A stretch of DNA of 27,271 bases, taken from the NCBI GenBank assembly GCA_013289445.1, contig JABCZZ010000022.1:1-27271 (forward strand), written 5' to 3'. The notes beneath the pieces are model-generated. The model was not told where the DNA came from, made no database searches, and was given only the letters and a program-made list of their open reading frames with translations. Origin of the DNA: Alphaproteobacteria bacterium (GTDB lineage: Bacteria; Pseudomonadota; Alphaproteobacteria; Rickettsiales; JABCZZ01). Of this stretch, positions 1 to 12,933 are shown piece by piece. Every line of letters starts with the position of its first letter. Position 1 is the first letter of the stretch. A program made the position numbers and the translations under genes.

Positions 1-57
1 TCCGGAATAAGCCGCCTGCTGCGCGGCCTGAGATTGTTTGCCGGTCAGGAAAGTCAT
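1..57 (-). CDS. N-terminus of a gene running off the window
   Basis: An open reading frame starts with ATG at 57 and reads MTFLTGKQSQAAQQAAYSG before leaving the window. The upstream sequence has only a weak AAGG about 16 bases before the ATG. It lies downstream of, and on the same strand as, the tail peptidase and the two unknown genes, so it may be the next gene of the phage-like cluster, where GTA-type clusters carry a large tail or host-specificity protein. That role is inference from position; 19 residues are too few for recognition. Confidence 0.45.
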   Translation of the reverse strand, partial: MTFLTGKQSQAAQQAAYSG

Positions 58-180
58 ATTCAGTATACGCCTTAAAATTGGGGTATGCGTCAGCGACGCC
101 TGTAGCGCATGAAACGCAAAGAAAAGAACGGCACGCTTTAGCGCCATTGCATCCTGCCGCTTATGTGGTGCTAATGCTGC

Positions 181-648
181 TTACGTGCGAGACGGCGGCT
201 TGCCGGGCGAGCGCTGCTCGCGAGCGCGCTCTTCCTCTGCATCAAAATCCCGTACCTTCTGGGCCTTTTTGTCCATGGCACGCAATTTTTCCATCACTTC
301 TTCGGGAACATCCCTGTTGTTATCAGCGACGAATGTCTCAAGCGCGATTTCCACCGGAAACTTTTTCTTGCGCAGATCTTTATTGTAAAAAGTCTGACGT
401 GCGGATACGGCAACGGAAGAGCCGGCAGACACTGTGCGTCCTTCATACTCACTGAGTTTGGCCTCGGTCATGTCGACTCCGGCACTGTAGATCAGTCCGT
501 ACACTTTATTTTCAGGGTCGAGTTCAACTCCCGCTACTTTCCCGGCAGCAATACCATTCATCCACATCACGTGCAGACCGTTGGCAAGCAAAAGCTCGTT
601 TATCTTCGGGCCGTCGGCAGAACTCGTGGATTGATCAGACTCGTTCAT
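181..648 (-). CDS. Hypothetical protein in phage-like cluster
   Basis: About 155 residues, not recognised. The N-terminal two thirds look like a compact beta-rich domain. The C-terminal third is highly charged, rich in Lys, Glu and Arg, probably helical, and ends in a basic Pro/Arg tail. No signal peptide or membrane segment is seen. The ATG at 648 is preceded by GGTAAG; a TTG at 675 in the same frame would add nine residues and leave six bases to the upstream gene. It is the second of two unknown genes lying between the tail peptidase and the gene cut by the window edge, all in the same direction. Function is unknown. Confidence 0.6.
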   Translation of the reverse strand: MNESDQSTSSADGPKINELLLANGLHVMWMNGIAAGKVAGVELDPENKVYGLIYSAGVDMTEAKLSEYEGRTVSAGSSVAVSARQTFYNKDLRKKKFPVEIALETFVADNNRDVPEEVMEKLRAMDKKAQKVRDFDAEEERAREQRSPGKPPSRT

Positions 649-681
649 GTACTTACCAATCGGATTATCGGACAAACACGC

Positions 682-1170
682 TTATAAAGCTCCGCCGGGC
701 GGAACGTCACTGTCTTTTTTTCTTTTTTTAAGGACGCGCTCCGTTGCCTGAAGCTCACGCGCGCGCCTCATCTGCTCTGCAATGCTAACGTGCATATGCG
801 CGAAGAATTGGTCGTTGATCAATATTTCATCAAGCTGGCGGCAAAGATTGGGCTGCAGGTTCGCTCTGTAATTTGTGTTCTGCATAAAATCCGAGAGTGG
901 CACGGGTGCCGCCAGATCGTGCCTGACAAGGCAAAGTGCGCCTTTGTCGTCGTGGGCAACCAGGCGGCCCTCTTGTTCGAATTGCATGCGCGCCGCTGCA
1001 TCCGGCTCTTCGAGCTTCACTAGACCGGATACAAACGCGCTTTTGGGATTCTCACTGGTGATAACCAAGCCGGCAGTGTTGCCGATATCGCGCAGGATAT
1101 CGGATGGCACGGAGTCCATCACCAGGAATTTGTCATCCAGCGGGCCGATCTTTAAGGGAATGGTTGTCAT
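682..1170 (-). CDS. Hypothetical protein downstream of tail peptidase
   Basis: A 162-residue protein beginning MTTIPLKIGPLDD. The ATG at 1170 was chosen because CCGGAG lies six bases before it; a longer in-frame start at 1197 has no better signal. The protein is soluble, without signal peptide or transmembrane segment. The C-terminal 50 residues are helical and very basic, with a KKRKK stretch. Its stop is close to the start of the next unknown gene, so the two are probably cotranscribed. I do not recognise a family. The position after an NlpC/P60 tail peptidase makes a phage accessory role possible but unproven. Confidence 0.65.
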   Translation of the reverse strand: MTTIPLKIGPLDDKFLVMDSVPSDILRDIGNTAGLVITSENPKSAFVSGLVKLEEPDAAARMQFEQEGRLVAHDDKGALCLVRHDLAAPVPLSDFMQNTNYRANLQPNLCRQLDEILINDQFFAHMHVSIAEQMRRARELQATERVLKKRKKDSDVPPGGAL

Positions 1171-1232
1171 CGTATACTCCGGTAGTGTTCTTGCCATTCA
1201 TCCTAGGCTATAAAAGTTACTAATCTGTTAAG

Positions 1233-1709
1233 TTATGCCGGTGCAAACAGGCTGAAAAAGCGGCGCTCGCGCAGGTAGTCCGCTTGAGAACCTTGTTCGC
1301 CTCTGCGCATAAGCCAGGTGGCTGTCTGCACATTTTCGATCATGCAGGCGCGTCCGACATAGGCATGGATGATGCGCGGCCACTCTATTACAATCGCGCC
1401 GTGACTGAAGCAGCGGCCAAAACGAAATGGGACGATATCGCCCGCAAGCGGCAGCTGCACTTCATGTGTATAACGGCTTAAGCCTTCAAGATAGCGCTCG
1501 GCAGCGCGATGCAGATGCCAGTCATGCGGATAATACGGCACCTCCAGCGGCGCTATCAGCCCTGCCTCGGCGTATACTTCAGCCAGCAGCGTCAGGCAAT
1601 CCACGCCCACGCCCTTGACGCGGCCCATCGGATGATAGGGCGTTCCCAGCCAGCTGTCCGCCACCGCTATAATGCGTACGCGCAGGCTTTCTTCGTGCAG
1701 TTTTGTCAT
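1233..1709 (-). CDS. NlpC/P60 phage-type cell wall peptidase (GTA g14-like)
   Basis: A 158-residue cysteine peptidase of the NlpC/P60 superfamily, the kind carried at the tail tip of GTAs and related siphophages to cut peptidoglycan during DNA entry. The expected catalytic residues are present: Cys38 in the VDCLTLL motif, His103 in FSHGAIV and His115 in IIHAYVG. The N-terminal GTPYHPMGRVKGVGVDC segment is typical of the phage NlpC group (TIGR02219). There is no signal peptide, as expected for a virion component. It is full length and undamaged, unlike the neighbouring phage genes on this strand. The gene expected before it, the DUF2163/TIGR02218 protein, survives as a fragment at 4375-4640, separated from it by a plus-strand cassette. 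Confidence 0.85.
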   Translation of the reverse strand: MTKLHEESLRVRIIAVADSWLGTPYHPMGRVKGVGVDCLTLLAEVYAEAGLIAPLEVPYYPHDWHLHRAAERYLEGLSRYTHEVQLPLAGDIVPFRFGRCFSHGAIVIEWPRIIHAYVGRACMIENVQTATWLMRRGEQGSQADYLRERRFFSLFAPA

Positions 1710-1869
1710 GCAAAATTCACGATACTTTGAGGATTGTGTCCTATAATCAGAAAAAGTCAGCAGCGTATGGAAGCGCTTATGGCCGACGACATAAAAGCCC
1801 GTTTAATAGCCCTGGCCAGGCCAAAAAACCGTTTTTGTAACACGATCTTAACACAGTCTTAATATTATT

Positions 1870-1890
1870 TTAACAATACACCTCTATACT
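1870..1890 (+). promoter_or_regulatory. Possible promoter region of the envelope cassette
   Basis: The AT-rich stretch before the three-gene cassette holds a TATACT hexamer at 1885-1890, 34 bases before the start codon. A TTAACA lies at 1870-1875, but the spacing is too short for a standard -35, so only the -10 element is plausible. A second -10-like TATAAT is at 1742-1747. Confidence 0.3.
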
Positions 1891-1923
1891 TGGGCCTAAG
1901 TAAACGCAGTAGGAGCATTGGTT

Positions 1924-2922
1924 ATGGCAGACAGACAACCTCCGGGTAACAGATCTCAGGATAATACCAGTCAACCGCAATACCCGAAAGAGCCGGGCTT
2001 TTTTAGTCGCCATAAAATCCTTGCCAACCTACTGCTAGGCACAGGTCTTGTGGCGGGGTTACACGAAATTTATCCCAAGACACCCACTTCTCCTGTTCCT
2101 GCTCCACTTCCACCCGCGCCGAATGTGCAGCCTGCGCAAACTGCGGACACAAACGCCGCTGCAGCTACAAACACCGTTGCAACAGCCAAGACTCCTGCGC
2201 CCAAACTCGGCATCGACAATCCCATTGACGAGATCCATGCTACGGCCGGCGTGTTTAACCGACATGTACTCATCGACTTCGCCAATCACATGGCACATAT
2301 CATCCGCGACACCGGCAAAATCGATGCCGATGGCGGCGTAACCCCTACTGCCCAGCAGCTCGCCCGGCTTTCTGAACCGTCGGAAGTGCTCAAGGCCTTC
2401 GGCGTGACGGCAAAGACCGATGACAATTATCGTTTCGGCGTATTCTCCAGTGCCGACAAGGTGGGCATGTGGCAAGGCTATGTCCGCGCCGGTGATGGCG
2501 CTCTGGTCATCGACCATATTGCAACGCTTCCCATCGAGCATTATCCGCCGATGATGGATGCGAACCGAAACAGCATCCTGTCCGGCGTGTTCGAAAGACT
2601 TGGACAGACCGGTTGTGCCGAAACCACTCCGCTGCCCAGAGGCAGTGAGATTATCGTGCCGGGTGCGGCATTGCGCGGCGCCGAGGATACGATGCAGACC
2701 CTTCCCCCGGATGCTGCACGCAAAGTTGTCGAAGCAGCGACTTTCACTAAAACGCTCTCTATGGCCACAGAGAAACTGCCGGATGGCTTTGCCTATGCCG
2801 ATGTCGGCGGCCAGAAGATCGTCACCAGCAATCTGAGCTTTGCCGATATGGCAAAAGCGCTGGACGGCGCCAAGATAAACAAGGGCGGCAAGGGCGGTGC
2901 GGGCGGACAGAGCCTCGCCTAA
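1924..2922 (+). CDS. Membrane-anchored periplasmic hypothetical protein (cassette gene 1)
   Basis: A 332-residue protein that I do not recognise. ATG at 1924 has AGGAG eight bases upstream; a TTG two codons earlier is less likely. A polar N-terminus of about 27 residues is followed by one hydrophobic segment (about residues 28-45, LANLLLGTGLVAGL), then a linker rich in Pro, Ala and Thr (about 50-95), then a globular domain of about 200 residues, and a Gly/Lys-rich tail. This layout predicts an N-in anchor with the main domain in the periplasm. It is the first gene of a three-gene run whose other products also carry export signals. The run lies between the fragments of two phage tail genes but on the opposite strand. 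Confidence 0.75.
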   Translation: MADRQPPGNRSQDNTSQPQYPKEPGFFSRHKILANLLLGTGLVAGLHEIYPKTPTSPVPAPLPPAPNVQPAQTADTNAAAATNTVATAKTPAPKLGIDNPIDEIHATAGVFNRHVLIDFANHMAHIIRDTGKIDADGGVTPTAQQLARLSEPSEVLKAFGVTAKTDDNYRFGVFSSADKVGMWQGYVRAGDGALVIDHIATLPIEHYPPMMDANRNSILSGVFERLGQTGCAETTPLPRGSEIIVPGAALRGAEDTMQTLPPDAARKVVEAATFTKTLSMATEKLPDGFAYADVGGQKIVTSNLSFADMAKALDGAKINKGGKGGAGGQSLA

Positions 2923-2949
2923 TCCACACCGACAGCAGGGAAGCATTAT

Positions 2950-3651
2950 ATGCCTGATGAGGATTTCACAAACGGCGGCCCGCTTGAAAACGACGTGACG
3001 CATGTCGGCGAAGATCGTGAACGCAAACAGTCGCGCAGACGATTTATTAGTAACATAGCCCTAGCCCTGGGCCTTACCGGCCTTGGTACAGCGGGCGGCA
3101 TGCAAGGCTACGAATGGCTGCGCGATCGCAAGAGCGCTCCGGTGAATTTCGATATCGAAGGCGAGATCCGCGAAGGACACATCAAGCAAGCCTCTTCGAT
3201 CAATTACAACATGTTCGGCTCCGGCAAGCAGGAAGACGCGTTCAAAGCGCTTAAAGCGGCCATCGATAAACATGACGTAACCGGTCTTACGCGCGAATTG
3301 AAAAAAAGCATTTACAGCGACCAGGACAAGGGCGGCGCGGTCGTCGCCAAGGCCATGACCTATTTGCTCGTCACCGGCCCGATGATGGAAGAAGACATGC
3401 ACAAGGCGATTCTCGCGGGCGTGCCTTACGCACGTGACATCCAGTTCACCACGCTGAACGCTACCGATACGCGCGAGGCCGTAGTGAAATCCCTGCCTGA
3501 GCTTGCACGTGACGGCTACGAGGTTGATCTCGTCGCCTCCGGCAGCAAGGCCAGCAAAGGTGTCGTCATCGCGCAAGATCCGGAGATGGGCCAGAGCCTC
3601 TCCAATTATATCGCAACCCTGCCTAAAACGCATAACCTTCCGAGAAAATAA
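2950..3651 (+). CDS. Hypothetical protein with Tat-type signal (cassette gene 2)
   Basis: A 233-residue protein of unknown family. The N-terminus contains the twin-arginine pattern SRRRFIS at about residues 28-34, followed by a hydrophobic stretch (about 35-50), so export or membrane anchoring by the Tat pathway is predicted; TatA and TatB are encoded in this window. No clear AxA cleavage site is seen, so the signal may stay as an anchor. The rest is a soluble alpha/beta-looking domain with no cysteine and no catalytic motif I can name. A GGGA lies about nine bases before the ATG. It starts 27 bases after gene 1 and ends 10 bases before gene 3, consistent with one operon. Confidence 0.75.
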   Translation: MPDEDFTNGGPLENDVTHVGEDRERKQSRRRFISNIALALGLTGLGTAGGMQGYEWLRDRKSAPVNFDIEGEIREGHIKQASSINYNMFGSGKQEDAFKALKAAIDKHDVTGLTRELKKSIYSDQDKGGAVVAKAMTYLLVTGPMMEEDMHKAILAGVPYARDIQFTTLNATDTREAVVKSLPELARDGYEVDLVASGSKASKGVVIAQDPEMGQSLSNYIATLPKTHNLPRK

Positions 3652-3661
3652 GGAGCAGCAT

Positions 3662-4378
3662 ATGTCGAATAAAAAGGGCAAGAACTGGAGCGACTCCGTT
3701 GCAACGCAAGCCACTACGGCAGCGCTGGCAGCTTCGCTGCTGCTTAGCGGCTGCGGCAAGTCTGACCAGCACACACATAAGCTGACGGCCGAGCAAAGGG
3801 CCGCACAGATCGCCCAGCGTGAGGCCGCGGCCAAGCAAGCCGACCAGGCCCATTTTGCCGCCGATCTGAAGACCAATGTGTTCGAAGCGTATAACATTGG
3901 TGCCATGAAGCCGGCCCAGGAAGACATGCACCAGCAGATTCTCAAACTCTATCAGGCGGCTCCCAATCGTCTTACCGCGCCGAGAATAAGCGCCGAGGAT
4001 ACCCGCAACTACAAGGCTTTCGTCACGGCGCTGCGCAAGCTCGATAACCTGCAGCACCCCACCGATGTGGATGCAAAGGGCAATCCGATTGCCATCACTG
4101 CCGATGATCGCAGAGCGGTCATCGGTGAAATGATGGCCAGAGGCTCGAGGATCAATGCCGAAGGCTTGATTGCCGATTTATTCGTGTATTGCCCCAAAGG
4201 TTCGCAGGGCATTACCTTTAAGATCGATGACCACCATCCGCCCGTCGATCTCAAAGGCCTGATTGCCCATGAAGGCCGCGGCATGACCTGGGATAGCCTG
4301 CAATATACCATCCAGAAGGTGGCTGAAATCAACGCCCGTGACAGTAAACACGTAAAAACGCCCCAAAAGCAGCGTTAA
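3662..4378 (+). CDS. Lipoprotein of unknown function (cassette gene 3)
   Basis: A 238-residue predicted lipoprotein. The N-terminus has basic residues, then the hydrophobic segment TTAALAASLLLSGC, whose LLSGC matches a signal peptidase II lipobox; the acylated Cys lies near residue 31. It is followed by a helical, Ala/Gln/Lys-rich region (about 38-75) and a domain ending in a basic tail. ATG at 3662 has AAGGAG six bases before it; a longer start would destroy the signal peptide. No family is recognised. Its TAA stop (4376-4378) touches, without any gap, the position 4379-4381 where the opposite-strand phage tail gene would end if its frame were restored. Confidence 0.75.
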   Translation: MSNKKGKNWSDSVATQATTAALAASLLLSGCGKSDQHTHKLTAEQRAAQIAQREAAAKQADQAHFAADLKTNVFEAYNIGAMKPAQEDMHQQILKLYQAAPNRLTAPRISAEDTRNYKAFVTALRKLDNLQHPTDVDAKGNPIAITADDRRAVIGEMMARGSRINAEGLIADLFVYCPKGSQGITFKIDDHHPPVDLKGLIAHEGRGMTWDSLQYTIQKVAEINARDSKHVKTPQKQR

Positions 4379-4740
4379 TTACACTGCCGTGGCGCTTTCG
4401 GGCACGTAGGAAATCCTCTGAAATTTACGAGATTGTTAAACTTGCTCTGGCAGGTCGTCTGCTGTTTGTCGCGGCCCGGTGTGAGGGTAAACGCATCCCC
4501 TGCCTGCGCTTGCAACGGAAACGGCGCGATCAGGCTCACCGTGCCGGACGCGCCCTGCAGATAGGTTTTTACCGTGCGTGAAATCCCGGCATTGGCGCCT
4601 GTGGTAAAGGCAATCGTTCCCAGATTAAAATAACCGCTCCCTGCGACAGCGTCGCGTTGATCACGTTCTGTGTGGAGCCTGTCGCTAAGGGGCCGCTTAG
4701 GTAGTGTCCCATACCGGTATGTGCGTAACGTTAAAACCAA
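4375..4740 (-). pseudogene. C-terminal remnant of a DUF2163/TIGR02218 phage tail protein (GTA g13-like)
   Basis: The minus-strand frame contains GYFNLGTIAFTTGANAGIS, then PFPLQAQAGDAFTLTPG, then KFNNLVNFRGFP. This is the order and spacing of the C-terminal domain of phage BR0599/TIGR02218 proteins, the gene normally just before the NlpC/P60 tail peptidase. The N-terminal DUF2163 part is missing; residues encoded above about 4650 do not match the family. After FRGFP the frame reads TCPKAPRQCN, but the adjacent frame reads YVPESATAV and then stops at 4379, which is the family-like ending, so one base seems to have been lost near 4415. The fragment is therefore truncated and frameshifted. Confidence 0.75.
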
Positions 4741-4802
4741 GGCCTGCTAGGGATGGTAGAACGGCAGTGGACATAAGCAAACTTCCTTGTATACAGGCGA
4801 GG

Positions 4803-5537
4803 ATGAAAAACAGTAAAGCGATTACGTCAATGATGATGTGCCTGCTTGCAAGCTGCGGCCCCGCGCCGCCTGCGCGCGATTATGTCTCGGCGGAAGAAGT
4901 GGATGCGATGATCATCCCGCCGGATGCCAACATTCAATTTTCACTGAGTAGAGGCTATCTCACGCGCGTGGAGCAAAACGATCTGCCGGCCGGAATCTAT
5001 GACCGCTTCGTCGCCATGGCGCAGCGCATGAAGCTGCCACAAACGCCGGATCTCTATATCGACATGACCGACCGACGCCGCGTGCCGCAAGCCGAAGCAC
5101 GCTTTACCAAGGAGGAGCATGCCTACATCGTCACCAACCGTAGTGTCTATACGCTATGGACGCCGGAGCAGCTTCTTGCCGTGTTCGGCCATGAACTCGT
5201 GCATCTGCGCAAACGTCATGTGACGGCAGAAAATATCGCCCTCGCCTTTAACGATCCTTCGCTGTCGATTAAACATGAACTCGAAGCCGATAAAATCGGT
5301 TCAGGGCCGGACGGCTCCTGCAATCCGCTGGCGCTCGAAGAGGCGCTGAAGATCGTCACCGGCATCGACGAGAGCCATTACCTCGCCCACCATCCGGGCC
5401 AGACACCGGAGGATTATGACGCAGCGGTAGGTATCGATCACCCGCTATGGGCCGACCGCGCGGCAAGGCTTGAGGACATGGCCGCGCATCCGCCTGAGGC
5501 TTGCGTAAAAACCATGGGCGAACGCATCAACAATTAA
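4803..5537 (+). CDS. M48-family zinc metalloprotease, predicted lipoprotein
   Basis: A 244-residue protein with the zinc motif HELVH (His130, Glu131, His134) and a downstream HELEADKIG segment whose Glu159 and Asp163 fit the third zinc ligand and the conserved Asp of M48 peptidases. The start at 4803 gives a short lipoprotein signal ending in LLASC, with Cys18 as lipidation site; starting at 4704 would bury it. M48 envelope lipoproteins usually degrade or fold outer-membrane proteins, but the partner here is unknown. The chain is short for a BepA-like enzyme and has no TPR domain. It lies on the plus strand between remnants of the tape-measure gene and the TIGR02218-type gene, where another tail gene would be expected. 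Confidence 0.85.
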   Translation: MKNSKAITSMMMCLLASCGPAPPARDYVSAEEVDAMIIPPDANIQFSLSRGYLTRVEQNDLPAGIYDRFVAMAQRMKLPQTPDLYIDMTDRRRVPQAEARFTKEEHAYIVTNRSVYTLWTPEQLLAVFGHELVHLRKRHVTAENIALAFNDPSLSIKHELEADKIGSGPDGSCNPLALEEALKIVTGIDESHYLAHHPGQTPEDYDAAVGIDHPLWADRAARLEDMAAHPPEACVKTMGERINN

Positions 5538-5894
5538 GACTTCCACACCGGCAGATTACGGTTAATATTGCGTCCCTGAGTGGAAATGGAACTGGCAATG
5601 ACGGATGCGTTGTTCTTAAGAAACTGCGCGCCGGTTTGCGTATCAATCGCATTGATGTTGATGGTGTAATTGTCGCCTCCCATACCGCCGCTGCCATGTT
5701 TGCGTGCGGCGCAGTATACCCGTAACCATCTGATCGGACGCATACTGGATAGAGCGAAAAAGCTGCACGCAGGTTTGAGACGAAATGAGGCTGGAATTAT
5801 TAAAACTCTCCAGTGCCGCATTTGCCTGACTCATGCCCTACTGCAGACCCGACGTATCGGCGTCAAACATGACCGTCACGATATTATCTGTCAT
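5538..5894 (-). pseudogene. Tape-measure protein gene reduced to its two ends
   Basis: From ATG at 5894 the minus strand reads MTDNIVTVMFDADTSGLQ, then an in-frame TAG at 5838-5840, then continues in the same frame MSQANAALESFNNSSLI and on to DQMVTGIL near 5710. A different frame then takes over with GGMGGDNYTININAID, then GAQFLKNNASVIASSI, and stops after PVWKS near 5536. The first part looks like the N-terminus and the second like the C-terminus of a phage tail tape-measure protein, normally several hundred residues or more. A large internal deletion, one nonsense codon and one frameshift are therefore inferred. No function can remain. Confidence 0.65.
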
Positions 5895-6060
5895 GGCGTC
5901 ACTTTCATTTCCGTCTCTCGTAAGGGAGCGAGCGTTATAAATAATCCATAAGAAATTGGCATCAGACCATCGCTAAATTGAGGATCACAGCCTTGTTGCG
6001 AATGCTTCCTATATGGTATCATGAAACCGTGTAATACCGTTTTTTTGAGGAGGCCGTCAC

Positions 6061-6279
6061 ATGCAACTCGCATCCCAATGGAATATGCTTTCTCTCGAGG
6101 AAAAAATTGAAGCAATGCACAATGACATCGCCGCGTTAATGGGCATTGCCGAAGAACTCAGTCACAAGAATCATGTATTTGTCGACGCCATCAATCTTGT
6201 GCATGCCAATCTCGACGGTATGACCAAAACCGTGCGCAGTCTTGAGAAACAAATCGCCGTTCCCGAGCTGATGTTTTAA
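6061..6279 (+). CDS. Small hypothetical protein, helical
   Basis: A 72-residue protein preceded by a strong GAGGAGG about six bases before the ATG. It is predicted to be almost entirely alpha-helical, with heptad-like hydrophobic spacing from about residue 10 to 65, so a small coiled-coil or dimeric helix bundle is likely. There is no signal peptide or membrane segment. It sits alone on the plus strand between two decayed minus-strand phage genes. I do not recognise it. The good ribosome binding site and coding-like composition support it as a real gene. Confidence 0.6.
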   Translation: MQLASQWNMLSLEEKIEAMHNDIAALMGIAEELSHKNHVFVDAINLVHANLDGMTKTVRSLEKQIAVPELMF

Positions 6280-6303
6280 ATCATGCGCACGCCTGACATG
6301 GAC

Positions 6304-6623
6304 TTAAAACGCTGGCACCAATTGCTCGGCATTGACTTCTTTTTTAGGCTGGATGCCAAGATAGCTTGCCACTATCAGCACCAGCGGCGGATTGGGTTTG
6401 CCATTCCTTGTACAATGCATTGAGGCGGTAAACGGTGAACGTGTTCTTGACATAACCCCATGTCCATCGGTCAGATGGCAGGCATGGGCTATGATGCTAT
6501 CCCAGTCTGGCCATTCCTCGCCTCCACACACTTCCCCCGCCGCACCGCTAGCAACGGCACAGCCCAATGTTTACCGCCTAGCATGACGCTAGGTGCATCT
6601 TCGAACTCTGGGGCAATTTCCAT
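6304..6623 (-). pseudogene. Decayed tail-assembly-chaperone-like phage gene
   Basis: From ATG at 6623 one frame reads MEIAPEFEDAPSVMLGGKHW and continues AVPLLAVR, then breaks down and stops. A second frame carries WDSIIAHACHLTD, a third carries GYVKNTFTVYRLNALYKEW, and the second resumes with NPPLVLIVASYLGIQPK and ends at 6304. Read together these make one plausible protein of about 105 residues of the type found upstream of tape-measure genes in alphaproteobacterial prophages. At least three frame changes separate the pieces, so the gene is dead. The family assignment rests on remembered sequence patterns and gene order and is moderate only. Confidence 0.5.
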
Positions 6624-6721
6624 GACACACTCTCTGTTTTAAGGCGGCGTAACAAATAATTAACCATTGTCGTCTATTGAAATAGAAACGCGTTCGGGGT
6701 ATTGAGACTTGAAAGGTGCTT

Positions 6722-7567
6722 ATGTCCACGTCGCAAAAAGCGTTAAACGACTTTCTGGCACAACACTGTGAAGTGAAGCCCATTGCCACTGGCGAGAGCG
6801 GACGCAAGGAACGTTATTACATTCTTTCCACCGAAGACTGCCTGCTCTACATGGCCGAGACCCATGTACAGGAGATGCGCAACATCATCGATCAGAGCGA
6901 GGAGAAGGTCGCCGCCGCCAAACGCAGCGGGGATTACAGCGATGTGATTATGAGTTATAACTGGGACGCGCCCAACGCCGGCATGAACAATATCCGAATT
7001 CCAGTGAAACTGATCGACGGGCTTGACGAAAAACGTGCCATGATGCTACTGCGCAATCTCGAAGGCATCCAGAAAGACATTGACGAGGGCCACCTCCGCC
7101 GTGAAGGGCTGCAGACGCTGTTTGGCGACACTGCCAATATCAAAACCTCGTCCAATCTCGACGGCGAACGCATCTATGTCATCACTGGCAAGCAATCGGC
7201 CGCCGACCGCCGGCGCTATGCCGAGCGTTATGCCGAAGTCGTGGCCACCAATGTGCTGTTTAGCCTGCCTAAGGCACTGAATGCGAGGCTCCAGAAAGCC
7301 ATGCCCAAGGAAGCACGCGGGCGTTTCTTTGTTGAAGGACGGGACATCACCACGCCTAAAATCCGCTATGGTGCCGAGGCACAGCCCGAACTCATCCTGA
7401 CCGATGAAGGCGCTGCGCTATATACAGGCCAGACCAAGAAAAACGCCAAGCTCGCCGAAACGGTAAGTAAATTATTCCAGCAGGCTATGCTTGACCCATT
7501 CGGGCTGTCGCTTAAGCACTACATGGGCAAACACGCGATCATTAAGTTTTCCTCGTCGAAGGAATAG
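6722..7567 (+). CDS. Hypothetical protein, 281 residues
   Basis: An unrecognised soluble protein. ATG at 6722 was chosen because AAAGG lies five to six bases before it; a GTG two codons upstream is the alternative. No signal peptide, transmembrane segment or obvious catalytic motif is visible. The middle (about residues 60-140) is rich in Lys, Glu and Arg and probably helical; the C-terminal half is mixed. Codon use resembles the surrounding core-like genes. It is a single gene on the plus strand, with a decayed phage gene divergent on its left and an AT-rich gap on its right. Its position is where prophage capsid or head genes would lie. Confidence 0.7.
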   Translation: MSTSQKALNDFLAQHCEVKPIATGESGRKERYYILSTEDCLLYMAETHVQEMRNIIDQSEEKVAAAKRSGDYSDVIMSYNWDAPNAGMNNIRIPVKLIDGLDEKRAMMLLRNLEGIQKDIDEGHLRREGLQTLFGDTANIKTSSNLDGERIYVITGKQSAADRRRYAERYAEVVATNVLFSLPKALNARLQKAMPKEARGRFFVEGRDITTPKIRYGAEAQPELILTDEGAALYTGQTKKNAKLAETVSKLFQQAMLDPFGLSLKHYMGKHAIIKFSSSKE

Positions 7568-7913
7568 TTATTTAGTCTATAGGCTCCTAACATATGGCGC
7601 ATTTTAATAGTGCTCTATAACATTTTTAATTTTTTATTTAGCTTTTATCTTTAACTAAGCGCCTCCTTGGTCAACTAAAGAGTTTTTTGTAGGATTGATA
7701 AACATGCACCCTCCCTTGTGGCTGATGAGTAAAAGGTAAATGAAAAAATTTTAGCAAAATTCAGCGATTAATTGACGTCAAACCGTTGGTGATAGACGCT
7801 TTGTGCACTGCCGATATAAAAAAATAACTAAGGTATTTCGCTTGTGTCGATGATATAATTACTCAGATTGCTACTGGCGGATTTACCGCGTTACAAATAA
7901 GAAACGGGGCAAG
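7568..7913. other. AT-rich intergenic gap
   Basis: About 346 bases, clearly richer in A and T than the surroundings, with several T and A runs. No reading frame, tRNA or hairpin terminator is convincing. The only feature I can support is the extended -10 promoter near its right end. Confidence 0.5.
7851..7859 (+). promoter_or_regulatory. Extended -10 promoter of pilin-like gene
   Basis: TGATATAAT matches the extended -10 consensus TGnTATAAT. It lies 54 bases before the start codon of the pilin-like gene at 7914. No good -35 hexamer is seen at 16-18 bases upstream, as is common for extended -10 promoters. Confidence 0.5.
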
Positions 7914-8777
7914 ATGAGCAGCAAGAAATCACCTCCTAAGCTGGCGTATCATAAGCACGGGGTCATGATGGCGGAGATAGCGATAGGTCTTGTCGTTATC
8001 GGTCTTATCGCCGGCGGCATCCTGACGGGGCGCGAAATCGCCACCATGTCGCAGGTTCATGCCCAAATTGCTCAGATTACGCGTTTTGACGAAGCAGTGT
8101 CGAACTTCTATGAAAAATTCGACGCGCTGCCCGGTGATATTCTCTCCGCCAGCGCTGAGCGCGAAGGCCTGCCTTCGGGCGACGGCACCCCTGCCCATAG
8201 CGACGGTGACGGCAAGATCTCTCCTTGCAATACCGGCTGGCAGTGGCATTTAGGTTGCGAGACGGCACTCTTCTGGGCGCAACTTTCGGCGGAAGACTTT
8301 ATCAAAGATAATTTTACCGCTGACAGCCGCCTGGAAGACGAACGCCTGCAAGAAGTGGGCGTGATGGATCCGTATCTGCCAAAATCACCGCTAGACGACA
8401 ACATTTATATCACCGTGTGGAACAGCAGCGCCGACCAGCCTTCGCCTGAACCCAGACTGCTGTATGGCAATTATTATGAAATCACCAAAATCCACGGCGT
8501 TGAAGGGGGAAAACTCAAAGATGATATTAATGCGCTGACCCCCGCGCAGGCCTATGCCATCGACAAAAAAATGGACGACGGCTATCCGCTTTCCGGTCGC
8601 GTGGTGGTCAATGGCAGTGCGAACTGGCCGCAAGACGCCTGGGGTACATTCGCCACTCCCGGTGAGAATAGTTGCGTGAGCCCCAACCGACATTACAACA
8701 TACAAAAATTACTTGATGGCCATCAGCAGCTCTGCCATGTTGCCATCGCGCTCGATTGCTGCGACAAGAACGAGTAA
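7914..8777 (+). CDS. Type IV pilin-like / pseudopilin protein with atypical prepilin motif
   Basis: A 287-residue prepilin-like protein. The N-terminus has a basic leader, then Gly16 followed by VMMAE, with Glu21 at the +5 position, and a long hydrophobic helix AIGLVVIGLIAGGILTG. This matches the prepilin peptidase site, but VMMAE replaces the usual FTLIE. After the helix come ALPGDI and a large variable C-terminal domain with several cysteines. It shares with the pilin-like protein at 10379 the LPGDI segment, the FW-x-x-LS segment and the IDKKMDDG-x-P-x-SGR motif, so the two are paralogues. A GGGG lies just before the ATG. No pilus assembly ATPase or prepilin peptidase is present in the window. 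Confidence 0.8.
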   Translation: MSSKKSPPKLAYHKHGVMMAEIAIGLVVIGLIAGGILTGREIATMSQVHAQIAQITRFDEAVSNFYEKFDALPGDILSASAEREGLPSGDGTPAHSDGDGKISPCNTGWQWHLGCETALFWAQLSAEDFIKDNFTADSRLEDERLQEVGVMDPYLPKSPLDDNIYITVWNSSADQPSPEPRLLYGNYYEITKIHGVEGGKLKDDINALTPAQAYAIDKKMDDGYPLSGRVVVNGSANWPQDAWGTFATPGENSCVSPNRHYNIQKLLDGHQQLCHVAIALDCCDKNE

Positions 8778-8785
8778 ATCCTCAC

Positions 8786-8956
8786 TTAAATCATGATTGG
8801 ATTGGCGAGTGCGATTCTCATCATCGCATGCGCGCGTTCGCCAGGTATCAGTTTGGTCAATGACGCTTCGACGGTGATTCGATCATCGCTTTTGCTCAAG
8901 GCATGCAGCCTGAGCGACGCGGGCGATAATATTGCTGGAATCAGGGTCTGGGTCAC
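8786..8956 (-). pseudogene. Possible transposase-start fragment
   Basis: A minus-strand frame of 56 codons from a GTG at 8956 reads TLIPAILSPASLRLHALSKS and then DDRITVEAS. This loosely recalls the N-terminus of ISL3-type transposases, before the zinc-binding part. There is no ribosome binding site, no inverted repeat and no further match. It may be a small remnant or a chance reading frame. Nothing else is seen in the 8778-8989 gap. Confidence 0.15.
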
Positions 8957-8989
8957 GGATTAACGGTTTTTTAAGGGGTTTACGTCAAA

Positions 8990-9388
8990 ATGGAAAAACA
9001 CAGGGAGATGTCAGAAATGACAAAGAAATTATTGGAAGTGAATCTCACGCGCGACGAGCAGAACACGCTTGCCTATCTTCAGTCCGGGTCTTGGGGCAGC
9101 GTCGGCGCAGACGGCAAGAGAACGCTTATTATCACTTCTGGCAAAGCGGATGCGGTCGACGCGTTGCTGACAAAACTTGCGGCCGAAGGTGTTTTTGCCG
9201 ACAAGGCTACCGCAGACCCATGGGTCAAGAGGATAGCTGCATCCGGCGCTCTCAGGCTTGACCAAGAGAGGCTCAACGTGTTCGGCATACAGAAGGTGGT
9301 CGAAACCCCTCCATCCGCACCCGGACAACCGGGCTCCAATCCCATTCGGCCCAACACTCCAGGCAACGGTCGACCTCCTCTGCGCTAG
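8990..9388 (+). CDS. Small hypothetical protein with Pro-rich tail
   Basis: 132 residues from the ATG at 8990 (AAGGGG about 11 bases upstream); 123 residues if translation starts at the ATG at 9017, which has GGAG nine bases before it and may be the better start. Residues 10-100 form a small mixed alpha/beta domain of soluble character. The last 30 residues are rich in Pro, Gly and Asn and probably disordered. No family is recognised. Its stop codon overlaps the opposite-strand stop that would end the terminase remnant, so the cargo gene ends exactly where the old phage gene ended. Confidence 0.6.
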   Translation: MEKHREMSEMTKKLLEVNLTRDEQNTLAYLQSGSWGSVGADGKRTLIITSGKADAVDALLTKLAAEGVFADKATADPWVKRIAASGALRLDQERLNVFGIQKVVETPPSAPGQPGSNPIRPNTPGNGRPPLR

Positions 9389-9635
9389 CTTTCCTCACTC
9401 GTATTCTCCGCAGCCTCGCGTAATATTCAAAAAATCCTGAGGCCGGACTATGCTGGATGGCATTGGCATAGACCAGGCTGTCGCCTTTATCTGGGCTTCG
9501 GCCAATGCGCCGGATGATCGTATCCTTGCTCTCCACCTGAATGCCGCGCACCGTGAGTTTGAAACGCGGTGCCGCTAAATCCGAAAGCAGTTCGTGATTG
9601 GGAGATAGCACGATGACCGAGTGTGCAGAACCTCA
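9385..9635 (-). pseudogene. C-terminal remnant of phage terminase large subunit
   Basis: The minus strand encodes SVIVLSPNHELLSDLAAP, then FKLTVRGIQVESKDTIIRR, then IGRSPDKGDSLVYA. This is the characteristic end of the nuclease domain of the terminase large subunit, the motor that packages phage DNA; the GRSPDKGDA-type motif is typical. The frame is closed by a stop just upstream, so the ATPase domain and most of the nuclease domain are gone. The reading frame near the 3' end probably also shifts, because the adjacent frame stops at 9385 after EES. It cannot be functional. Confidence 0.7.
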
Positions 9636-9749
9636 GGGCATCAAATGCGCTGTCAATGCTTGCGTTATCTGGATACATAGAAAAACAATCTGCACGCTTC
9701 AAAAGCGCGTCGTGAAGTGCTAAAATGCCGGCAAACACCGGGGGGCACC

Positions 9750-10238
9750 ATGCATTACCATGTCGTTTTTGATCTCAATCAGGTGGGTTTCAAGCCGGAG
9801 AATATTGCGCCGCTGGCACTGGGCATTCTCTTTGTTCTGATCGGCATTGTCTTCGTCCTCTTTCGTCAACGGCTTATTAAGTGGGGACTGGTCGCGCGCG
9901 CGATGCCCTTTGTTTTTCTCGCGTTCTCAGTGTTCTGGTTGATCGGCGTGCTCTGCGTCTCTTTCGAAGAATTCACGGTCGCAAGTGAAGCACTTAAATC
10001 AGGCAAGGCTAAAGTAATAGAAGGGCAGGTCAGCAGCTTCAGACCCATGTTTGCAAACGCCACCAAGATGGAACATTTCTGCGTCAAAGACACCTGCTTC
10101 GCTTATTCCGATTATATCATGACCGCAGGTTTCAATCGTACGAGCAAGTATGGCGGCCCCATCCGCGAAGGCCTGCCGGTGCGCGTGACGTATCTCGGCA
10201 ATATCATTGTGAAGCTCGAAGTCGCGGATGGTCACTGA
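9750..10238 (+). CDS. Inner-membrane hypothetical protein
   Basis: A 162-residue protein with two predicted transmembrane helices (about residues 16-36, IAPLALGILFVLIGIVFVLF, and about 48-68, MPFVFLAFSVFWLIGVLC), followed by a soluble domain of about 90 residues. That domain contains VIEGQVSSF, FCVKDTCFAYSDY and GGPIREGLPVRVTYLGN, a pattern I recall from a family of uncharacterised small membrane proteins. The ATG at 9750 is preceded by GGGGGG four bases upstream; an earlier in-frame start at 9717 is unlikely. It lies on the plus strand beside the terminase remnant. Function is unknown. Confidence 0.75.
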   Translation: MHYHVVFDLNQVGFKPENIAPLALGILFVLIGIVFVLFRQRLIKWGLVARAMPFVFLAFSVFWLIGVLCVSFEEFTVASEALKSGKAKVIEGQVSSFRPMFANATKMEHFCVKDTCFAYSDYIMTAGFNRTSKYGGPIREGLPVRVTYLGNIIVKLEVADGH

Positions 10239-10251
10239 ACAGCGCAGGCAT

Positions 10252-10287
10252 AAAAAAACCCGCTGCGGCGACCCGAAGCAGGTAGGA
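10252..10287 (-). terminator. Intrinsic terminator on the minus strand
   Basis: Read on the minus strand, a GC-rich stem-loop (arms near CCTGCTTCGGG and CCGCAGCGGG, with one mismatch and one wobble pair) is followed by seven T. It directly follows the stop of the membrane protein gene but points the other way; on the plus strand the hairpin is preceded, not followed, by the A/T run. It could end transcription arriving from the phage regulator operon at 11327-12151. Confidence 0.55.
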
Positions 10288-10378
10288 AACACTCATCGAC
10301 TATGTGTAAGATCGTATATTTCCTTCACGCGAAGGTCAATGTACAAAATGCAGTGCCTGTGAAAAAATTGCTAACGCC

Positions 10379-11326
10379 ATGTGTGTAAAAAGTAAAAACG
10401 GTTTTACGCTCATTGAACTTTCCATCGTGCTGGTCATCATCGGCCTCATCGTAGGCGGTGTACTGGTGGGACAGGATCTGATTCGCGCCGCACAAGTTCG
10501 CGCCACGATCTCACAGATCGAAAAGTACAATACTGCCGTCAACACCTTCCGCGGCAAATATGGTTACCTGCCGGGTGATATTACCAATACGGCCGCGACA
10601 CAATTCGGTTTTGCTGCACGGGGGACTCAGGCAGGTCAGGGAGATGGCAACAGCGTGATTGAAGATAACGGATGCGGCGTTAATATGTTTGGCGGCGAAA
10701 ACGAGATGTTCTGGGTGGATTTAAGCGTAGCAGGCCTGATTGATGGCAACTTCAGCATCAATAATATCTTGGTCTCGCCCTACTTCGGAGCCGTATCATC
10801 CACCGCCTTAGGCCAATATATGCCTGAGGCAAAATTAGGGCAGGGTAATTTTATTTATGTCTGGAGTGGCGGGTGGAAAGAAGCGGCCCCGATTAATGCA
10901 GATGGTGGTGGCGGATGCGCATACGGAGGAGACAATATTAATTATTTTGGGCTTTCCGCAGTCATAGGCCCCGGTAGTTCGATGTGGCCTCTGGCCGTTT
11001 CAAATGTGGGCTTAACCGTGCAACAGGCCTACGGCATCGATAAAAAAATGGATGATGGCATGCCTCAGTCAGGTAGAATTATGGCGATGTATGATGGTTG
11101 GATATGGTGGGCTGCCGGTGGAGCTCCTGATCCAGTGAATGGTCAAATGAATGCGGGAGATAGTTCGAATCTCGATGGCGGCCCTGCTCAAGCGAGCGAC
11201 TTCGGTGGACAGATGCCTGCAGGGCTCAATTCATGTTACGATGCAAGTTCAGGCAGTGAACAATATTCCATGGAAATAAGCGGCGGCACGGGCGTCAATT
11301 GTGCGGTGTCGTTCCGCTTTCAGTAA
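10379..11326 (+). CDS. Type IV pilin-like / pseudopilin protein
   Basis: A 315-residue protein with a canonical type III prepilin signal: Gly8 followed by FTLIEL, with Glu13 at +5, then the hydrophobic helix SIVLVIIGLIVGGVLVG. Prepilin peptidase would cleave after Gly8. Downstream are YLPGDI and a long Gly-, Asn- and Asp-rich domain, typical of the large pilin-like proteins that occur in multiple copies in some alphaproteobacteria. The motif IDKKMDDGMPQSGR is shared with the paralogue at 7914. No good ribosome binding site precedes the ATG at 10379. It ends next to the convergent phage regulator gene, with zero bases between them. Confidence 0.85.
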   Translation: MCVKSKNGFTLIELSIVLVIIGLIVGGVLVGQDLIRAAQVRATISQIEKYNTAVNTFRGKYGYLPGDITNTAATQFGFAARGTQAGQGDGNSVIEDNGCGVNMFGGENEMFWVDLSVAGLIDGNFSINNILVSPYFGAVSSTALGQYMPEAKLGQGNFIYVWSGGWKEAAPINADGGGGCAYGGDNINYFGLSAVIGPGSSMWPLAVSNVGLTVQQAYGIDKKMDDGMPQSGRIMAMYDGWIWWAAGGAPDPVNGQMNAGDSSNLDGGPAQASDFGGQMPAGLNSCYDASSGSEQYSMEISGGTGVNCAVSFRFQ

Positions 11327-11887
11327 TTATCCCGCCGACTCCGCCATCTGAACGTCAGATGCTTTTTCCAAGGCTTTCTTGAGATCGCGCATGCGGGCAA
11401 GCGCATCGCCCAGCGCATCAAATGCTGCGCGTACATACACGGTGATGGAATTGACCGGCAGGCCCAGCTGCCTGCCCGCGGCGATCGCCGCTATCTCCTC
11501 AAAACAGATTTTGCTGATGAGATCATGGTCACGTTTGCAAAGATAGCCCATGGTTTTATAAAACTGATCCTCGGCGCTCATGCGGCCAAGGTGGATGAGT
11601 TCAAAATGGCCCGAGGGCGCGCTCGCTGTGCGTTCATACTGGATGGATTTGAGAAAGGGACGGCGGGCAATCGTCCATAGCGTAATAATCTGCATGCCGT
11701 AAAGATGCTGCATCTCATCGATGATGCCGCCGGTGAGTAATTTGTCGATGCGCAGCGACTCGTCGACCTGCGCAATATGGCTGCGTATCGTAATTCCCCC
11801 ATGGCGCAGGCGTTCAATCGTGGGAAGATTTTCATATATCGTTTTTGTTTTGCACCCCTGCTGCTTGCGCTTTTTCTTACGCCCCAT
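11327..11887 (-). CDS. Phage-type regulator-like protein (DUF6456-like region)
   Basis: A 186-residue basic protein starting MGRKKKRKQQ. ATG at 11887 has AAGGA six bases before it. The pattern of SLRIDKLLTGGIIDEMQHLYG, and near the end ISKICFEEIAAIAAGRQLG followed by VRAAFDALGDALA, resembles a group of alphaproteobacterial proteins found between the repressor and terminase of prophages and also in DUF6456-type regulators. DNA binding is suggested by the basic N-terminus and the helical C-terminal part, but is not proven. It is the second gene leftward from the repressor, with the terminase remnant further down on the same strand, which is the order expected for a prophage. Confidence 0.55.
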   Translation of the reverse strand: MGRKKKRKQQGCKTKTIYENLPTIERLRHGGITIRSHIAQVDESLRIDKLLTGGIIDEMQHLYGMQIITLWTIARRPFLKSIQYERTASAPSGHFELIHLGRMSAEDQFYKTMGYLCKRDHDLISKICFEEIAAIAAGRQLGLPVNSITVYVRAAFDALGDALARMRDLKKALEKASDVQMAESAG

Positions 11888-11941
11888 ATCGCTTCCTTGT
11901 TCTTATATGTGTTGTCTATTTTTTGTGATGTGAGTGCAGCC

Positions 11942-12151
11942 CTACCCTTCTTTGAGTCCATAAAAAACGTAGAGTGCCCATGCCTCGTCTTCACTTAGCA
12001 ATCCACGCGCCAGCCAGAAGGCGATCATCACGCAGGCCTCGCTGACGTCGAAATCCATCAATATGCCCACCGCCATGAGCGCTTTACGGAAATCCCCCTG
12101 CGGGCAAGGCTCTACAAAACGCGAGCGAAAAGGAAGTATGCCTGCCACCAT
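11942..12151 (-). CDS. Small hypothetical protein, first gene leftward of repressor
   Basis: A 69-residue protein starting MVAGILPFRS. AGGGG lies six bases before the ATG at 12151, a strong signal. The chain is mostly helical with hydrophobic faces, including MAVGILMDFDVSEACVMIAFWLARG, and has no clear helix-turn-helix or signal peptide. It is divergent from the repressor and would share its control region, the position of an early or Cro-like gene in a lambdoid arrangement. The function is not recognised. The next gene on the strand starts about 54 bases after its stop. Confidence 0.6.
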   Translation of the reverse strand: MVAGILPFRSRFVEPCPQGDFRKALMAVGILMDFDVSEACVMIAFWLARGLLSEDEAWALYVFYGLKEG

Positions 12152-12167
12152 AGCAATCCCCTAAATG

Positions 12168-12200
12168 GGCGGTTTCTCTTGATTTCCCGCCTATTTTTTT
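12168..12200 (+). terminator. Weak hairpin with T-run in the control region
   Basis: GGCGG (12168-12172) can pair with CCGCC (12187-12191), followed by TATTTTTTT. It could be a short terminator or attenuator on the plus strand upstream of the repressor. The stem is only five pairs, so the call is weak. Confidence 0.25.
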
Positions 12201-12232
12201 GTTGCTGTTTACGGCGGATTCAGGCACACTAT

Positions 12233-12244
12233 GGGAATGTTCCC
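12233..12244. promoter_or_regulatory. Operator-like palindrome O1
   Basis: GGGAATGTTCCC is a perfect palindrome in its outer five bases on each side. It shares GGGAAnnTTCCC with the site at 12267-12278, 34 bases away centre to centre. It lies between the divergent repressor and the leftward phage gene, so it is a likely repressor binding site. Confidence 0.6.
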
Positions 12245-12266
12245 GCGTGACATAACCCTGGGTTTA

Positions 12267-12278
12267 GGGAAAATTCCC
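12267..12278. promoter_or_regulatory. Operator-like palindrome O2
   Basis: GGGAAAATTCCC is a fully symmetric 12-base palindrome ending four bases before the repressor ATG. Together with the site at 12233 it forms a pair of matching operators. Binding here would block translation-proximal transcription of the repressor itself, suggesting autoregulation. Confidence 0.6.
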
Positions 12279-12282
12279 AATT

Positions 12283-12933
12283 ATGGATATCACCCGCGAC
12301 AACCTGCTTTCACTGATACAATCCGGCATGAAACGTGCCTCGCTGGGCATTGCCGGGCTTGAGAAAAAGGCGGGCGTACCCAAAGACACAGTGCGCGATT
12401 TCCTGCGCGGAAAAACTCAGATACTGCGCGCAGATAAATTACAGAAGCTGTTGCGCGTAATTGAGCCGGAACATAAAATCATCATTACAGGATATGTCGG
12501 TGCCGGCACCGAGATCTTCCCGCTGGACGACGGCGATAAGACAGACTGTCCCCCAAGCGTTGCGCCCTCGGACGTGCTTGCCGTACGCATCAGGGGCGAT
12601 GCAATGTATCCGGTATTTCATGACGGCTGGATTATCTATTACAGTGAGAAGCGCGATCTGCATATCCCGCATCTGCGCGGCGGATTGCAGGTGCCATATA
12701 ACAAGTCCGGCAAAAAATCCAAGACAGCCGAGTCCGCTGACGCACACGATCCTCTTGCAAAATTCTTTGGCAAGCCCTGCATCGTAAGACTCAACGACGG
12801 ACGCACGATGCTGCGAACGCTTAAGCGTGGCCAGGCCGCCGGGCGCTACAACCTGATAAGCTACAACACTGACGATATTGAAGATGCCGCGCTGATGTGG
12901 GCAGCCAAAATCGTTTTTATCAAGACCGAATAG
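12283..12933 (+). CDS. CI/LexA-like phage repressor with lost self-cleavage dyad
   Basis: A 216-residue protein with an N-terminal helix-turn-helix region (about residues 1-60, GIAGLEKKAGVPKDTVRDFL) and a C-terminal S24/LexA-type domain (about 68-216). The family cleavage site Ala-Gly is present at 74-75 in GYVGAGTE. The nucleophile motif GDSM is changed to GDAM (Ala107), and the dyad lysine position in RTMLRTLKRG is Arg178. Both catalytic residues are therefore missing while the fold motifs remain, so self-cleavage is not expected. Two matching palindromes lie just upstream. It probably represses the divergent leftward phage genes and itself. The end overlaps by 14 bases the convergent gene at 12920. 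Confidence 0.85.
   Translation: MDITRDNLLSLIQSGMKRASLGIAGLEKKAGVPKDTVRDFLRGKTQILRADKLQKLLRVIEPEHKIIITGYVGAGTEIFPLDDGDKTDCPPSVAPSDVLAVRIRGDAMYPVFHDGWIIYYSEKRDLHIPHLRGGLQVPYNKSGKKSKTAESADAHDPLAKFFGKPCIVRLNDGRTMLRTLKRGQAAGRYNLISYNTDDIEDAALMWAAKIVFIKTE

Follow-up and report, generated by a model that had tools for sequence, protein, structure and literature searches.

The window, a 27,271-nt stretch from an alphaproteobacterium (Alphaproteobacteria bacterium, GTDB Rickettsiales JABCZZ01; GCA_013289445.1, contig JABCZZ010000022.1, positions 1-27,271 of the forward strand), carries nine remnants of phage- or GTA-like genes on its minus strand, in phage order, from position 1 to about 9,670 (Table 1). 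Only the NlpC/P60 gene is whole, and amid the remnants lie non-phage ORFs, here called cargo, of which eight are plus-strand and two minus-strand. A sequence-only reading of positions 1-12,933 had named five minus-strand structural genes in phage order, four of them broken and NlpC intact, and searches with HMM libraries and relatives' proteins bear this out. It had also carried the cluster to 12,933, which is too far: the cluster ends near 9,670, leaving the second pilin-like gene, the membrane protein at 9717 and an S24 regulator outside.

Table 1. Phage-strand remnants and cargo ORFs of the cluster, by position in the window.
Feature	Positions	Strand	Evidence
g15 (baseplate/tail-tip) start, first ~20 codons, running past the window edge	1..57	-	
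Non-phage ORF, 164 aa	181..675	-	ORF list
Non-phage ORF, 171 aa	682..1197	-	ORF list
NlpC/P60 tail peptidase (g14-like), intact	1233..1709	-	HMM libraries, relatives
Cassette gene 1, 334 aa, hydrophobic N-terminal segment	1918..2922	+	Simple heuristics
Cassette gene 2, 233 aa, twin-arginine-like N-terminus	2950..3651	+	Judged by eye
Cassette gene 3, 238 aa, lipobox	3662..4378	+	Simple heuristics
g13 (TIGR02218 hub) stub, codons ~186-287, frameshifted	4396..4700	-	HMM, relatives' proteins
g12 (distal tail) stub, codons 1-24	4703..4774	-	Relatives' proteins, E 1.3e-7
M48 peptidase-like lipoprotein, 244 aa	4803..5537	+	Pfam M48, 5.8e-8
Tape-measure stubs, codons 219-274 (5537-5704) and 1-67 (5694-5894)	5537..5894	-	Relatives' proteins
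72-aa gene, common to window and G066	6061..6279	+	53% over 64 aa in L191
Tail-chaperone stub	6316..6608	-	Relatives' proteins, E 1.7e-10 and 9.9e-7
283-aa gene adjoining the chaperone	6716..7567	+	Relatives in G001, G051, G066, G031
Pilin-like protein 1, common to window and G066 (58%)	7914..8777	+	Relatives, heuristics
Head-protease end stub	8789..8947	-	Relatives' proteins, E 1.0e-6
132-aa ORF	8990..9388	+	ORF list
TerL end stub, codons ~404-477	9381..9614	-	Relatives' proteins, E 9.9e-25
Small TerL-linked gene, start (weak)	9613..9669	-	Relatives' proteins, E 0.005

Profile HMMs matched the NlpC/P60 gene (TIGR02219, 57.7 bits against a cut-off of 81.9; PHROG tail, 4e-12) and the hub stub (Pfam BR0599, 2.4e-24; TIGR02218 positions 170-247 of 266, 74.7 bits against 80.5). 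The tape-measure, chaperone and TerL stubs found no such family in the HMM libraries and are visible only via proteins of relatives in the nearest GTDB family, represented by four genomes (G001, G031, G051, G066); the two tape-measure stubs reached E 2.4e-22 and 3.7e-13, and the best value from 20 mononucleotide shuffles was 7e-4. The g15 start (65-70% over 20 aa with G051 and G066 g15, E 0.03-0.17) and the small TerL-linked gene, against a chance minus-strand match of 0.009, are weak by themselves and owe their assignment to position. The NlpC/P60 protein is 64-65% identical to that of G051. In sum, collinear phage structural genes, some of them broken, mark the window as holding a prophage remnant.

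Several of the cargo proteins have a lipobox or a hydrophobic N-terminus by simple heuristics, and the envelope or surface role proposed earlier would fit these but not the shared 283-aa protein, which has neither signal nor a known fold. No family match was found for the two minus-strand ORFs in HMM library searches or for the 132-aa ORF, a protein search gave no relative of cassette gene 1, and the M48-like lipoprotein has one relative (45%). The cargo had also been placed wholly on the opposite strand; that is true of eight ORFs, but the two at 181-675 and 682-1197, also within the cluster, share the strand of the phage genes. Pooled over four loci, 28 of 33 cargo genes are antisense (binomial p 7e-5), made up of 8/10 in the window, 6/8 in G051, 2/2 in G001 and 12/13 in G066; with shared genes counted once the figure is 23/28 (p 9e-4), and the window alone gives p 0.11. 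The list was made by hand, omitting one minus-strand ORF of 335 aa in G001 and, in G066, a lipoprotein remnant, and the bias is probably overstated, as phage-strand ORFs of no assigned family may have passed as phage genes. No excess of promoter- or terminator-like sites was seen near the cargo (9 and 13, against 12.0 and 14.1 in shuffles). A crude greedy gene caller applied to 20 other clusters of the order was dropped, having called 5 of 10 ORFs of phage Polewnik antisense where the annotated TerL-to-tip genes all share one strand; G011, which it had presented as an interspersed cluster, has a g12-g13 pair amid ORFs read as housekeeping genes.

Three of the four family genomes (G001, G051 and G066) possess the cluster; in G031, four cluster genes were probed and none matched. 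The less broken versions sought by the sequence-only reading do exist: the G051 cluster is nearly complete, its structural genes open and plus-strand cargo already among them, while G001 has lost the capsid gene. In all three the plus-strand genes have phage genes between them, and nowhere among them do the same plus-strand genes keep their order free of phage sequence. The 283-aa gene adjoins the tail chaperone in the window and in all three clusters and the gaps recur, but most other cargo differs from genome to genome. The picture of a decayed phage- or GTA-like cluster with intact non-phage genes filling its gaps is thus supported.

The proposal that decay created the collecting site, the prophage dying first and host genes then gathering in dead DNA, fares less well. 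It can draw on the lineage-specific nature of most cargo and on G066, where the cluster is in a worse state than in G051 and the cargo is more plentiful (13 genes against 8, by the hand-made list). It is nevertheless improbable: in G051 the cargo sits among open structural genes, which contradicts this order for that genome's cargo, the window's lineage-specific cargo aside, and the 283-aa gene is common to the window and all three clusters. These same two observations suggest that cargo arrival preceded structural-gene decay.

Codon positions bear on the timing of the break-up. Relative to G051, differences at positions 1/2/3 are 38/18/57% in the g13 stub, 28/18/54% in the TerL stub and 29/14/68% in the tape-measure end stub, compared with 38/24/65% in the intact 283-aa gene; the tape-measure start stub is looser (54/30/69%). 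The ratio of third to mean first and second positions is 1.8-2.1 for g13 and 2.4-2.8 for TerL in the stubs, below the 2.6-3.3 and 3.7 of intact family pairs, and together with the loose start stub this indicates that part of the stub divergence is relaxed. Since divergence of the stubs from relatives is still concentrated at third positions, an excess also favoured by the relative's own constrained branch and by protein-guided alignment, the break-up in the window looks recent, with some relaxation visible.

The account we favour, at somewhat better than even confidence, is that of an ancestral cargo-bearing, GTA-like cluster recently deleted down to stubs in the window lineage. An ancestor in this Rickettsiales-like family would have carried a siphophage structural cluster in which the tape measure was shortened and which had probably been domesticated into a GTA-like element. 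Comparison of the loci shows that non-phage genes entered gaps among the structural genes, mostly in antisense orientation; the structural genes themselves remained under protein-level selection through much of the family's history, as the codon positions support. Judging from the layout, later deletions in the window lineage would have taken out most structural sequence, their end points constrained by cargo genes needed by the cell, so that intact cargo would now stand between collinear phage stubs.

It is conceivable, although unlikely, that domestication is unneeded, related temperate phages with ordinary morons having entered the lineages separately and died in place, with cargo kept as helpful to the host. 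By our own reading, cluster neighbours differ among G001, G051, G066 and the window, and ORFs that we take to be lysozyme-like and holin-like adjoin the G051 tail genes. Moreover, capsid relatives occur in only 3 of 343 genomes of the order, and TIGR02218 was found in 143 of 174 within the order, from which phages of this type appear common there. Against separate entry stand the common cargo in an identical gap in four genomes and the short tape measures; in addition, no integrase or repressor was recognised by eye in the ORF lists next to those cluster ends that are visible in G001, G051 and G066, the tail end falling at a contig end in G001 and G051. The same reading by eye, with the view limited by contig ends, recognised no integration or replication module in these flanks. 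Because no att site, integrase or common chromosomal place is established, vertical descent of the cluster is putative.

A search of 343 genomes from the order matched the 283-aa gene in five, four from the family and one weak. Its nearest relative, P0002 (79%), comes from a contig of 29,744 bases. G031 has it outside any detected cluster and may have acquired it independently. That it is a degenerate, homing-endonuclease-like selfish gene spreading via phage clusters, the rest being incidental, is highly improbable: LAGLIDADG nucleases do recur among its weak Foldseek matches (best E 0.0044), but at TM-scores of about 0.2 or less, LAGLIDADG is absent from the 24 Pfam families given for 43 aligned members, and no LAGLIDADG match was found among PDB sequences.

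Under the favoured account of cargo before decay, the genomes would form a series of stages, from nearly complete G051 with cargo, through partial losses in G001 and G066, to the stubs of the window and perhaps to G031 with the shared cargo alone. Such a series makes it testable whether guest genes seated in domesticated phage clusters determine what phage sequence persists in bacterial genomes. A bolder idea, and a long shot, is that the family's domesticated, short-tailed GTA-like cluster would be a modular locus with recurring antisense slots, in which cargo transcription silences the structural operon, changes of cargo tune particle making, and structural loss leaves a cargo island. Reading of the 14-kb Caulobacter GTA cluster is aided by anti-termination (PMC11150451), so that antisense genes within a cluster of this type would run head-on into structural reading.

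Among known systems, RcGTA-type GTAs share the g12-g13-g14-g15-like tail-tip genes in equal order, as well as a short tape measure. That of RcGTA comprises a helix of 113 residues, 83 residues in strands and loops and a helix of 20 residues, for a 49-nm tail (PMC7296036). The window's relatives have tape measures of 274 and 284 aa, as against 723 aa in L221, the closest viral contig (IMG/VR), and 966 aa (by coordinates) in Brevundimonas phage vB_BpoS-Polewnik; compared with L221 the ends are retained and the middle is absent, and in the window codons 1-67 and 219-274 are all that remains. This length hints at a shortened, GTA-like tail. The cluster is nonetheless not an RcGTA member by curated cut-offs (TIGR02217, TIGR02218, TIGR02219, GTA_megatron): among the curated models matched, G051 passes TIGR02218 only (108.6 against 80.5 bits), falling under the cut-off for TIGR02217, TIGR02219, megatron and portal_HK97. 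It differs further in holding cargo, mostly antisense, and in being broken in the window. G051 resembles Polewnik in its portal (44% identity), protease (55%) and capsid (38%), and the cluster resembles L221 in g12 (55%), g13 (60%), NlpC (56%) and g15 (54-59%); both viruses differ in having these structural genes on one strand. Morons and prophage cargo are likewise non-phage genes that one phage lineage has amid its structural genes and a relative lacks, and the window's cargo does lie between genes that stand side by side in a related phage, the chaperone-to-g15 stretch of L221 being contiguous on one strand. In S. Typhi such cargo is described as transcribed within otherwise silent prophages (PMC2704369). 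Here, unlike ordinary morons, the genes are many per cluster, mostly antisense within the structural module and in recurring gaps, and no promoter or terminator signal was found for them. We interpret the locus as a GTA-like element whose recurring gaps hold antisense cargo and which broke up recently in the window; GTA activity and the roles of the cargo are putative. The findings also suggest that a head of the Polewnik type is combined, in a Rickettsiales-like family, with tail-tip genes like those of GTAs and a tape measure of GTA size.

The minus strand of the window carries the collinear remains of a phage-like structural cluster, in which nine of the fifteen genes in the span from a small TerL-linked gene to g15 survive (g12-g15 being RcGTA-like tail-tip genes, with g14 the NlpC/P60 gene). 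The sequence-only reading had claimed five phage structural genes on this strand within 1-12,933, which HMM scans and relatives' proteins confirm, but the cluster ends near 9,670; its claim that four of the five are broken is borne out, with NlpC whole and the others reduced to stubs. The two best-preserved genes were found by HMM scan of the window, namely 1233-1709 (TIGR02219, 57.7 bits versus a cut-off of 81.9; PHROG tail, 4e-12) and 4375-4740 (Pfam BR0599, 2.4e-24; TIGR02218 positions 170-247, 74.7 bits versus a cut-off of 80.5), while the other remnants are visible only with relatives' intact proteins as queries. E-values for seven of the nine remnants range from 1.0e-6 to 9.5e-66, the exceptions being the small TerL-linked gene and the g15 start. 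As a control, 20 mononucleotide shuffles of the window gave a best E of 7e-4, and noise in the unshuffled search comprised 19 plus-strand matches (best 0.021) and one chance minus-strand match (0.009). Searching with relatives' proteins, no portal, capsid, connector, neck, terminator or tail tube was detectable in the window.

Structural remnants of the window, recurring slots between structural genes, and copies of the family's hairpin repeat
Feature	Position	Strand	Basis or occupants
Small TerL-linked gene	9613-9669	minus	E 0.005, rests on position
TerL end	9381-9614	minus	relatives' proteins
Head-protease end	8789-8947	minus	relatives' proteins
Chaperone	6316-6608	minus	relatives' proteins
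Tape measure codons 1-67 + 219-274	5537-5894	minus	relatives' proteins
g12 codons 1-24	4703-4774	minus	relatives' proteins
g13 codons about 186-287	4396-4700	minus	relatives' proteins + HMM
NlpC, whole	1233-1709	minus	HMM
g15 start	1-57	minus	E 0.03-0.17, rests on position
Slot g15/NlpC			window two ORFs; G051 one; G066 one
Slot NlpC/g13			window three genes; G051 one; G066 three; G001 none
Slot g12/tape-chaperone			window and G066, 72-aa gene; G001 and G051, lipoproteins; G066 also lipoprotein remnant
Slot beside chaperone			6716 gene in window, G001, G051, G066
Slot neck to protease/portal			window and G066, pilin 1; G051, other genes
Repeat copies	L189:4490-4600; L177:11352, 8406, 1048; L178:15061; L255-L264

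Intact non-phage genes had been read on the plus strand between the phage genes, and eight such ORFs are indeed open there, but two more lie on the minus strand. In a search of ~5.8 billion proteins, restricted to shared short exact words and similar length, cassette gene 1 had no relatives, the M48 lipoprotein had one (45%), and the protein of the 6716 gene (283 aa, beside the tail chaperone) had 44. By simple heuristics several cargo proteins possess a lipobox or hydrophobic N-terminus, and much of the cargo probably acts at the cell surface. PADLOC matched none of ten proteins (eight of the ten in-cluster ORFs, one outside the cluster and one of G051). Two pilin-like proteins (7914-8777 and 10379-11326, the second outside the cluster) are mutually related, at 32% over 232 aa. 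A 24-base stretch (3391-3414 versus 3920-3943) recurs at 88% identity in cassette genes 2 and 3, which are possibly related to each other; a BLAST comparison of 43 proteins, from cargo genes and their neighbours, does not join them.

The window's ABC permease has its best relative (79%) in a genome of the GTDB family to which G001, G031, G051 and G066 belong, and its ornithine carbamoyltransferase (OTC) is 70% identical to those of G001 and G031. Structural genes with an open frame in G051 are g15 (1071 aa), NlpC, g13, g12, tape, chaperone, tail tube, terminator, neck, capsid, protease, portal and TerL, a list that leaves out the connector, on the border of two sequence stretches. Between these structural genes stand plus-strand cargo genes (of 268 aa, a 135-aa lipoprotein, the 6716 homologue, of 382 aa and of 246 aa), with a 361-aa plus-strand gene among the tail-fibre genes and two phage-strand cargo ORFs that we take to be a glycosyltransferase and MscL. 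G001 retains TerL, connector, neck, terminator, tail tube, chaperone, tape, g12, g13 and NlpC, with only scraps of portal, no capsid found anywhere in the genome and no protease on the cluster contig. In G066, g13 is open, g15, NlpC, g12, neck and portal are in pieces, TerL was not found in the genome, and a hand-made list gives thirteen cargo genes; apparent losses in G001, G051 and G066, all draft genomes of many contigs, may partly be gaps. TIGR02218, g15 and TerL are without match in the G031 genome, where the portal search matched solely a repeat and the 6716 gene lies away from any matched cluster gene. In that region of G031 (L208:13854-16000) the homologue is ~1.1 kb from a piece resembling the beginning of the S24 regulator of the window, beyond which is an ORF read as a serine recombinase. 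A related cluster in G059, of another family of the order (L215:5277-16692; capsid 61%), shows, as read by eye, non-phage ORFs on both strands between its structural genes and a tape-measure-like ORF of only 170 aa.

Across family members the same gaps are filled while their occupants differ. Within the set of 43 proteins, BLAST linked different genomes only through the 6716 gene and the pilins; a separate search paired the 72-aa gene of the window with that of G066, and the G066 remnant of the G051 lipoprotein has 41% identity.

In G051 the portal (L189:3707-5860) is extended at its C-terminus by a long acidic stretch containing an HPRWPGG-like motif, and G001 has a free-standing stretch like it (L177:6112-7119). 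One copy of a dispersed hairpin repeat of ~70 bases lies in frame inside this portal gene; the stem varies between copies, seemingly in a compensatory manner. An order-wide search matched the repeat in 4 of 343 genomes, all four being the family; no copy was found in the window. It is reminiscent of Rickettsia palindromic elements.

Protein-guided alignment with G051 gave differences at codon positions 1/2/3 of 38/18/57% for the g13 stub, 28/18/54% for TerL and 29/14/68% for the tape end, a pattern close to that of the undamaged 6716 gene (38/24/65%); the tape start is looser (54/30/69%), and window OTC versus G001 gave 25/19/52%. We conclude that the break-up looks recent relative to the family split, although a period of relaxed selection is visible. 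Speaking against a recent break-up, stubs have a lower ratio of third to mean first/second positions than intact family pairs (g13, 1.8-2.1 versus 2.6-3.3; TerL, 2.4-2.8 versus 3.7), and this ratio is also raised by the relative's constrained branch and by protein-guided alignment. Since cargo lies inside the G051 cluster and the 6716 gene is shared, at least these genes appear to have come before decay. The order of events in the proposal that a decaying prophage collected envelope genes is thus reversed for datable cargo, which in G051 sits amid open structural genes; the window's lineage-specific cargo may have arrived before or after decay. Cargo genes needed by the cell may have limited deletions, and phage fragments adjoining them would therefore survive. 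The cluster itself may have been domesticated.

The tape measure is 274 aa in G051 and 284 aa in G001. It reaches 723 aa in L221, which is the nearest of seven viral contigs that a search with the tail tube protein retrieved; in alignment of the family's tape measures with it the middle is absent and both ends are retained. According to PMC7296036, the RcGTA particle has a 49-nm tail, and its tape measure consists of a 113-residue helix, an 83-residue part made up of strands and loops, and a second helix of 20 residues. The family's tape measure, similarly short, points to a GTA-like particle without proving it. Judged by curated cut-offs, the cluster is not a member of the RcGTA type, and in G051 only TIGR02218 passes. 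Among the titles and abstract openings listed for open-licence literature on GTAs, their tape measures and tail length, morons and Rickettsiales prophages, none described antisense slots of this sort. The cluster combines known kinds, a GTA-like relic and morons, and is a real and informative case of their combination.
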